NCBI GenBank assembly: GCA_027592745.1
Contig: JAQCLG010000021.1
Coordinates: 1 to 34,463, forward strand
Length of the DNA stretch: 34,463 bases
DNA from: Pseudomonadota bacterium
GTDB taxonomy: Bacteria; Pseudomonadota; Alphaproteobacteria; SP197
Direction of reading: 5' to 3'
Below the pieces are notes generated by a model. The model worked only from the letters and a program-made list of their open reading frames with translations, had not been told where the DNA came from and made no database searches. Below are positions 18,553 through 19,899 of this stretch, piece by piece (positions within the stretch are counted from its first letter, which is position 1; each line of letters opens with the position of its first letter). The position numbers were made by a program, and so were the translations under genes.

Positions 18553-18575
18553 GGCTTGCCTACATAGCGCAAGCC
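18553..18575 (+). terminator. Stem-loop after the M20 gene
   Basis: GGCTTGC (18553-18559) and GCAAGCC (18569-18575) form a perfect 7-bp stem around a 9-nt loop, 24 bases after the M20 stop. It may end the MFS-M20 operon. There is no strong T-run, so confidence is limited. Confidence 0.4.
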
Positions 18576-18585
18576 TTGTGAACCG

Positions 18586-18622
18586 CTCCCCCTCTCCCCC
18601 TTGTGGGAGAGGGCAGGGTGAG
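18586..18622. repeat. Left arm of a palindromic repeat pair (interrupted by the IS)
   Basis: This 37-base sequence begins CTCCCCCTCTCCCCC and ends GGGCAGGGTGAG. It forms its own hairpin (CCCTCTCCC with GGGAGAGGG). It matches the reverse complement of 19837-19872 except for one extra C. Its last two bases (AG) are the core at which the IS110 element joined. The arm continues on the far side of the element at 19775-19789. Confidence 0.85.
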
Positions 18623-18635
18623 CGACTGTCTGCAT

Positions 18636-18641
18636 TGTCAA
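18636..18641 (-). promoter_or_regulatory. -35 hexamer at the IS right end (half of a circle-junction promoter)
   Basis: On the minus strand TTGACA overlaps the transposase stop codon and points out of the right end. If the element circularises at the CT core, TTGACA would be followed after 17 nt by TATCTG from the left end. This would give a promoter driving the non-coding left end and the transposase. Junction promoters are known for IS110-family circles; here it is inferred from sequence. Confidence 0.6.
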
Positions 18642-19576
18642 GCTGTCATGGTGATAGTTGCGCGGACGTCACGTGCTTTCGCGTTGAGTCGAACGAGGAG
18701 CTTTCGAGCAAGAGCGACACGGATTTCCTTTTTGGACTTGCCGGCCTGGCTCAACCTTCGATGGAAGTCTGCGAAGTCGGGATTGTGGCGCCGGACGACG
18801 TCAGCGACGACGAAGAGGATGGCCCTGAGGCTCCTTCGTCCTCCGTGGACGCGTCGTTTTCCGCTGTGTTTTCGGCTGTCCTTGGCCATGGGGGCCAGAC
18901 CGGCGAGTTTGCCGGCGGCCTTGTTGGAGATAGTCCCGATCTCGGCGAACTCGGCCATCAGGGTGGCGACGGTGTGATCGGCCACGCCCTTGATCTCGCG
19001 GAAGGCCTGGTCGAGGGCCTGCCACAGGGGATCGTCTCCGATGAGGGCTGCGATCTCGGCCGAGAGTGTCCGGACCTGGCGTTTGATCACGGACAGGATC
19101 TCGTCGATCGAGGCGAGCGCGGAAGGATCGCGCACCAGTCGGCGCTGGTTGGTCTGCGTGGTCTTGATGACGGTGATCTGGCGCAAGCGGGTGACCAGGG
19201 CGCGCAGGCGATCCTGGTTGGCATCGGCCGGCGTCCGGGGTTCAGGCTGGCAGACCTCGCCATACCGGGCGATGACGGCAGCATCGATCCGGTCTGTCTT
19301 TTCCAGGAAGCCCATCGCCTCGGCCAGCCGGCGTACCTGGCGCGGGTTGACCACGGCGCAGGCCATGCCGGCCTCCCACAACAGGCTGAAGGTCAGCCTC
19401 TCGTATCCGCCGGTGGCTTCCAGCACCACCAGCTCGGCATCATGGTGCCGACAGAACACGATCAGCTCAGCAATACCCTCGGCGGCGTTGGCCACGCGAA
19501 CCTGGGCACCGGCCAGGCCGATGCTGGCATCGAGATGGTCCTTCGAGACATCCACTCCACAGATGATCTTGGTCAC
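18638..19576 (-). CDS. IS110-family transposase (DEDD recombinase)
   Basis: This 312-residue recombinase has an N-terminal RuvC-like DEDD domain. The acidic residues are Asp9 in CGVDVSKDHLD, Glu53 in VLEATGGYE, and Asp95 and Asp98 in KTDRIDA. The C-terminal Transposase_20-like domain starts around GVADHTVATLMAEFAEIG and contains KLAGLAPMAKDSRKHSG, where a conserved serine acts in this family, followed by RRSLRAILFVVADVVRRHNP. The reading frame is intact. The start is GTG at 19576, with AAGGCAGG upstream as ribosome-binding site. It would move the element through a circular intermediate guided by the non-coding RNA from the left end. Confidence 0.93.
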   Translation of the reverse strand: MTKIICGVDVSKDHLDASIGLAGAQVRVANAAEGIAELIVFCRHHDAELVVLEATGGYERLTFSLLWEAGMACAVVNPRQVRRLAEAMGFLEKTDRIDAAVIARYGEVCQPEPRTPADANQDRLRALVTRLRQITVIKTTQTNQRRLVRDPSALASIDEILSVIKRQVRTLSAEIAALIGDDPLWQALDQAFREIKGVADHTVATLMAEFAEIGTISNKAAGKLAGLAPMAKDSRKHSGKRRVHGGRRSLRAILFVVADVVRRHNPDFADFHRRLSQAGKSKKEIRVALARKLLVRLNAKARDVRATITMTA

Positions 19577-19772
19577 GGTAACCTGCCTTGTGCGTGCGAT
19601 TGGCGATCAAGCGACTGTTCGGTCGTACGTGACAGCGGCCAGGATCCCAGGGCTCACCCACGGTTGTTGCCGGAGGGGGTACGGGCGACCTGGACCGCGC
19701 ACGGGGACCGGTGGCCACCGGTCCCCGTGCGACATCGCTTCCATCACAACGCGATGCCAAAATCCAGATACA
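19577..19772 (-). ncRNA. Predicted bridge (seek) RNA region of the IS110 element
   Basis: These 196 bases upstream of the transposase have no coding frame of note but are rich in structure. In 5' to 3' order on the minus strand: a stem GCATCGC/GCGATGT (19757-19751 with 19738-19732); a 34-base perfect palindrome (19731-19698); and an internal loop flanked by CCAGG/CCTGG and closed by CGG/CCG. That loop holds ACCCCCT on one side (19680-19674) and GGGTGAG on the other (19659-19653). Next come ACAGTCGCT (19618-19610) and ACAAG (19591-19587). GGGTGAG is complementary to the target right half with core, CTCACCC. ACAGTCGCT is identical to the right-end donor with core. ACAAG is complementary to the left-end donor CTTGT. 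The left target guide match is weaker (CCCCT only). Confidence 0.7.
19698..19731. repeat. 34-base perfect palindrome inside the IS left end
   Basis: Every base of the two 17-base arms is complementary, with the centre at TGG/CCA and no spacer. In RNA it would form a very stable hairpin between the 5' stem-loop and the predicted target-binding loop of the bridge RNA. It could also act as an operator-like site in DNA. It lies wholly within the element. Confidence 0.9.
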
Positions 19773-19774
19773 AG

Positions 19775-19872
19775 GGGTCTTGCGCGCGGCAGGCCGGGCA
19801 CTTCGGATCATGTCCGCGCTACCGCGCGCAAGACCCCTCACCCTGCCCTCTCCCACAAGGGGAGAGGGGGAG
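19775..19872. repeat. Rest of the palindromic repeat pair, with an intact IS target copy
   Basis: GGGTCTTGCGCGCGG (19775-19789) continues the left arm. A 32-base loop follows, then the full right arm (19822-19872) with CCGCGCGCAAGACCC, the core CT at 19837-19838 and CACCCTGCCCTCTCCC. Without the element, the two arms would be about 51-52 bases each and nearly identical in inverted orientation, a BIME-like intergenic palindrome. The right arm is the unoccupied twin of the IS insertion site. Together with the IS left end this fills the gene-free stretch 19577-19899. Confidence 0.85.
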
Positions 19873-19899
19873 GAAATTCTCAGGGCCGAAGGCGGCGGC

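Follow-up and report, generated by a model that had tools for sequence, protein, structure and literature searches.

A predicted bridge RNA in the left end of an IS110-group insertion sequence, with guides that covary with insertion sites among its relatives

The window studied here is a 34,463-nt stretch of DNA (contig JAQCLG010000021.1, assembly GCA_027592745.1) from a Pseudomonadota bacterium of the Alphaproteobacteria. Positions 18621-19772 of its minus strand are occupied by one complete IS110-group insertion sequence of 1152 bp, including one CT core, which lies inside a REP-like palindromic repeat. The left end (LE) is the 196 bp upstream of the transposase gene, exactly the interval in which the initial annotation had placed a bridge RNA, and the right end (RE) is 17 bp including the core (18621-18637). 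The features of the locus are as follows.

18574-18622, unstranded: right part of the REP-like palindromic repeat holding the element (repeat family in the same genome)
18616-18620, minus: right target half CACCC, adjoining the core CT (18621-18622)
18621-19772, minus: whole insertion sequence, with ends set by comparing over 30 relatives inserted at various sites and further copies in this genome
18636-18641, minus: candidate -35 hexamer TTGACA in the right end (TTGAC in all elements with a right end)
18638-19576, minus: coding sequence of the IS110-group DEDD transposase/recombinase, 312 aa, GTG start (Pfam and IS621 alignment)
19577-19772, minus: left non-coding end with the predicted bridge RNA gene (RNA at about 19577-19758, transcript ends presumed), alignable across 18 relatives and of conserved structure
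19586, minus: predicted donor-loop handshake base G, after the right donor guide
19587-19591, minus: right donor guide (RDG) ACAAG, reverse complement of CTTGT across the core and left end, 5/5
19610-19618, minus: left donor guide (LDG) ACAGTCGCT, identical to right end 18621-18629, 9/9
19635-19698, minus: target-binding stem-loop with arms GCGGTCCAGG and CCTGGCCGC (helices 2-4 of the consensus fold)
19652, minus: predicted target-loop handshake base C, after the right target guide
19653-19659, minus: right target guide (RTG) GGGTGAG, reverse complement of CTCACCC at 18616-18622, 7/7
19674-19680, minus: left target guide (LTG) ACCCCCT, 5/7 match to GACCCCT
19699-19730, minus: 5' stem-loop with a 13-bp stem, lying within a perfect 34-nt palindrome in the window copy
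19765-19770, minus: candidate -10 hexamer TATCTG in the left end (TATCT conserved; weak as a -10 by consensus)
19773-19781, minus: left target half AAGACCC plus the core CT (19773-19774)
19773-19886, unstranded: left part of the same REP-like repeat (repeat family in the same genome)

The 312-residue product matched the Pfam families DEDD_Tnp_IS110 (6.6e-22) and Transposase_20 (1.8e-12), and its only solved relatives by sequence were IS621 (8wt6, 3e-23) and ISCro4 (9t56, 5e-20). Alignment with the IS621 catalytic residues (PMC11208158) placed D9, E53, D95, D98 and S234 opposite D11, E60, D102, D105 and S241, and the reading frame is intact with all five residues kept. The protein thus has the RuvC-like DEDD domain together with a Transposase_20 domain bearing the catalytic serine. 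The long non-coding left end upstream of the transposase gene and the short right end constitute the IS110 layout. An IS1111 layout, which has the RNA region downstream of the transposase gene and long subterminal inverted repeats, was rejected, as the non-coding RNA region lies upstream of the transposase gene and the right end is 17 bp.

On the minus strand, the left flank runs ...AAGACCCCT into left end TGTATCTGG..., and the right end runs ...ACAGTCGCT into right flank CACCCTGCCC.... The CT core is common to both joints, to the target and to the donor, and there is no other duplication. With the element taken out, its flanks form an uninterrupted repeat, and alignments with several intact repeats pass over the joint, either gap-free at that point or with few gaps. 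A large palindrome (CTCTCCC...GGGTGAGGGGTCTTGCGCGCG...CGCGCGCAAGACCCCTCACCC...GGGAGAG) has the two joined flanks as one of its arms. Dozens of copies of this REP-like family, of the form CTCTCCC...GGGTGAG...CTCACCC...GGGAGAG with a GCGCGCGG core, were seen on the contigs of the genome (G000). Since its target is part of a REP-like repeat of the genome, the element comes to lie in intergenic repeats, a habit known for IS110-type elements that insert into REP sequences (PMC1525189; PMC11208160). The nearest relative (G001) carries the locus with neither the element nor its repeat. Three host contigs stop inside further copies of the insertion sequence, where the assembly breaks: C127 and C257 each finish in a right end and C184 in a left end, all three in the host repeat described above and at an identical base. 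Host copies other than that in the window are known as contig ends only, and the element bases present in them are identical over 35-41 (two right ends) and 38 (one left end) positions.

The initial annotation had read two target guides and two donor guides in the left end, and all four were recovered at the places named. The ordered trio of RTG, LDG and RDG was found in 0 of 200,000 mononucleotide shuffles of the left end, although the RTG alone was found in 1.8% of them; the comparative covariation described below is the stronger proof. Only the LTG is imperfect: against the left flank (...GACCCCT/TGTATC) it has mismatches at -4 and -5, the two positions farthest from the core. In pattern searches of the host genome, the whole 12-nt guide was matched at three intact sites (ACCCCCTCACCC; contigs C86, C128 and C140) and, with one mismatch, at about a dozen others. 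The imperfect LTG of the window copy could mean that LTG positions far from the core matter less in this clade, that the guide has drifted, or that the element came in with a guide suited to the repeat of another host.

The folding energy of the single sequence was mildly below that of shuffles (z -1.9), and covariation among relatives was relied upon instead. In the consensus fold, 92% of cells pair, vs 77% in shuffles and 33-46% with partners slid, and the observed structural covariation was reached in 0 of 500 shuffles. The covariance folding of homologous left ends that had been proposed as a check revealed changes on both sides in 11 of the 13 pairs of the 5' stem (94% of cells paired), and the target stem also has compensatory changes. 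The stem of the donor loop is nearly invariant among relatives and hence a weak test of covariation. The window RNA, folded to minimum energy, does form the small CGG/CCG stem that had been described between the target guides, though relatives differ in it. An Rfam search of the region returned no family match except a chance microRNA hit.

A sigma-70 scan of the linear window detected no promoter, as expected, because the candidate -35 and -10 hexamers meet only in the circle: TTGACA and TATCTG are 17 bp apart solely in the circular RE-LE junction. Once the ends are joined, a spacing of 17-18 bp between TTGAC and TATCT is kept in every element with a right end. The TTGACA overlaps the transposase stop codon (cTTGAca), so that the end of the coding sequence and the candidate -35 share bases. 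By sequence analysis, these candidate junction hexamers agree with the junction promoter of IS621.

The guides were then compared with insertion sites across relatives in Alphaproteobacteria, in Acidobacteria and in phyla farther off. An alignment query fetched 80 relatives, where a single-protein query scan of genome contigs had yielded no confirmed ones; a phylum-wide search at E 1e-70 added no genomes, and viral contigs held three relatives only, which were left out of the analysis. The left ends could be aligned over their full length in about 30 relatives (56-65% protein identity; Alphaproteobacteria and Acidobacteria). Guide columns were fixed from the window, each guide was compared with the flanks of its own element and with those of other elements, and whole clusters (left ends at least 90% identical) were permuted. 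The LTG matched its own left flank at 0.72 of positions vs 0.38 for the flanks of others (16 clusters), and the RTG matched its own right flank at 0.93 vs 0.55 (14 clusters); neither value was reached in 20,000 permutations. Individual elements illustrate the correspondence: the RTG is AGGTGAG with flank CTCACCT in Vineibacter, CGCTCAG with CTGAGCG in an Acidobacteriaceae genome, GGGAGAG with CTCTCCC in Methylobacterium, and GAATGAG with CTCATTC in one of two related Rhizobium copies that were compared. The claim that this bridge RNA can be read directly from one genome is upheld.

A blind scan, in which each 6-nt stretch of the left end was compared with each flank in both orientations and no guide was named, gave the same result. 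For the left flank on the same strand the top stretch was the LTG (z 6.0, next 2.9), and for the reverse complement of the right flank it was the RTG (z 6.6, next 3.2); the two remaining pairings of flank and orientation gave no comparable peak (best 3.7 and 3.3). Covariation per position was sharp-edged, extending from -5 to -1 on the left and from +1 to +5 on the right, with none at -6 or +6, and the covarying target is therefore 12 nt with a CT core (5 + CT + 5).

Multi-copy families in two relatives' genomes provided a comparison of guides with insertion sites of the kind that the initial annotation had called for. In one complete genome (G295, 59% identity) 8 copies, and in another (G391, 40% identity) 10 copies, are at sites matching 8-11 of the 11 scored non-core guide positions; background CT sites match 3.5 and 3.2 of 11 on average, respectively. 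The G391 target (CGTCGTCCT/GACG) is wholly unlike that of the window, and the G391 guides differ to match. Among distant relatives (35-41% protein identity), RTGs match at 6-7 of 7 positions, lie mostly 40-49 nt upstream of the LDG, and fit very diverse right flanks.

Some relatives depart from the common arrangement. One Acetobacteraceae element (L060) has no recognisable right end, was omitted from the tests for that reason, and has a shifted LTG; it is probably degraded. Two others (L021 and L047) have, in place of the left end and the first codons, what appears to be the 3' part of an IS256-type transposase gene; identified by eye, these are probably cases of one insertion sequence disrupted by another.

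The close clade has one donor change only: Rhizobium and Mesorhizobium have ATAGTCG in place of ACAGTCG, and their LDG changes with it. When distant relatives were included, with the donor sequences of their right ends read by eye from printed ends before the donor test, there were 10 donor types, and the LDG tracked the right end (1 of 20,000 permutations over types reached the observed value). Homologous copies whose loops stay constant at other target or donor sequences had been named as evidence against a bridge RNA; here the loops change with the target (LTG and RTG) and with the donor (LDG). The best match of the right end within an element's own left end was 7/7 in 29 of 30 elements, nearly always after CCGA or CCGG. 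The RDG matches 5/5 but is almost invariant in the clade, so identity is the evidence for it. In a Microvirga element (L083), a 21-nt tandem duplication in the left end doubles the donor guide (ACCGAACAGTCGC...ACCGAACAGTCGCT). Two Roseomonas elements (L077 and L079) have the right end ACGGTCGCT, which nothing in the 200 nt upstream matches in full, the best in L077 being 6/7 in an odd place; their RNA layout may differ from that of other relatives.

In IS621, the base that follows each right guide is reported to pair, once strands have been exchanged, with the other DNA (PMC11208158). The base after the RTG in the window is predicted to pair in this way with donor -1 G. Of the 30 elements whose right end is known, 29 have C at this place facing a donor G and one has T facing G; two distant elements with donor A have T. 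After the RDG there is invariably a G; among 33 instances, target -1 was C in 30 and T in the remaining 3. As judged from sequence, the bases after the right guides follow the published handshake rule, with few independent changes.

The best explanation for these observations is that this IS110-group element carries in its left end the gene for a bridge RNA of about 180 nt, with guides that pair with the target and with the element's joined ends; the probability of this reading is put at about 95%. Chance matching through shared composition comes close to being negligible. The target and LTG are indeed C-rich, and the RTG alone did occur in some shuffles, but the permutation controls argue strongly against chance, the C-rich flanks of other elements fit clearly worse, and targets that are not C-rich (CATT/CT/GATGA, CT/GAGCG, CT/GGTTA and CT/TTTTC) are matched by their own guides. 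A second possibility is that the structured left end serves chiefly to control transposase expression, as a 5' leader or a small regulatory RNA, and that the guide matches are incidental. Such a role has a precedent in ISPpu9, which also targets REP sequences and for which two small RNAs that regulate its transposase have been described (PMC8450116), and the left end does adjoin the transposase start codon. Sharp-edged loops that copy the left flank of each insertion, and that are the reverse complement of its right flank, are not something a leader would require, and this explanation is very improbable, although leader and guide roles could coexist.

Somewhat less remote, but still unlikely, is that the bridge RNA functioned in ancestors and that the window copy no longer moves. 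This would account for its poor LTG match and for the presence of better-matching intact sites in the same genome. Against it stand the intact reading frame with its catalytic residues and the additional ends, identical in sequence, at contig ends in the same repeat. Partial LTG matches of this kind also occur in copies of G295, a multi-copy family, and of L034. A further reading, tentative and less likely than not, is that guides in this clade are symmetric (7 + 7), the right arm and the three left positions next to the core setting the site; mismatches of the LTG at -4 and -5 would be tolerated, and elements would wander among variants of the host repeat while their guides drift to follow.

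Under the bridge RNA reading, and following the mechanism described for this system (PMC11208160, PMC11208158), the right-left junction of the excised circle would make a promoter that transcribes the left end, and the RNA, by analogy with IS621, would bind the DEDD/serine recombinase. The first internal loop would pair with the 12-nt target, in keeping with the covariation of guide and target found here, in which the LTG would cover 5 nt and the CT of the bottom strand, and the RTG the CT and 5 nt of the top strand. The second loop would pair with the element's own joined ends, as shown by covariation for the LDG and supported by identity for the RDG. The enzyme would then exchange strands at the CT core, aided, as in IS621, by the handshake bases beside the right guides.

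The element resembles IS621 of E. coli (PMC11208160, PMC11208158) in its left-end RNA of about 177-180 nt (predicted here), in the sequence of 5' stem-loop, target loop and donor loop, and in the guide order LTG, RTG, LDG, RDG. The CT core, the RE-LE junction promoter (a candidate here), the handshake bases, insertion into REP sequences and the DEDD and serine residues are also alike. It differs in target and donor, in a recombinase of modest similarity (E 3e-23), and in a very long, GC-rich 5' stem. The covarying target of the window clade is 12 nt (5 + CT + 5) with a 7-nt RTG including the core, whereas IS621 has an 11-nt target, a 9-nt LTG and a 4-nt RTG; longer RTGs have been noted in some orthologues (PMC11208160). 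The ISCro4 transposase (PDB 9t56), likened by recombinase sequence, is the second solved relative and is of lower similarity. The seekRNA of IS1111/IS110 elements (PMC11187229) likewise guides target choice from a non-coding region, upstream of the transposase gene in IS110 types; in IS1111 types the RNA is downstream and the guide order reversed, whereas the window element has the IS110 layout. ISPa11, ISPpu9, ISPpu10, ISRm19 and ISRm22 (PMC1525189) also insert into palindromic genomic repeats, a likeness drawn here from insertion habit.

The element is thus a well-supported added member of the known bridge RNA system and not a new system. Its guides are readable from one genome and can be checked from public sequence alone, and as Rfam returned no match, the clade could be added to RNA annotation. 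The family gains from it a clade of Alphaproteobacteria and Acidobacteria whose RTG is naturally long and whose 12-nt target is clear. Extension of the RTG improved IS621 recombination at non-CT cores, its effect on specificity also having been tested (PMC11208160), and this long-RTG clade is therefore a reasonable source of recombinases to test.
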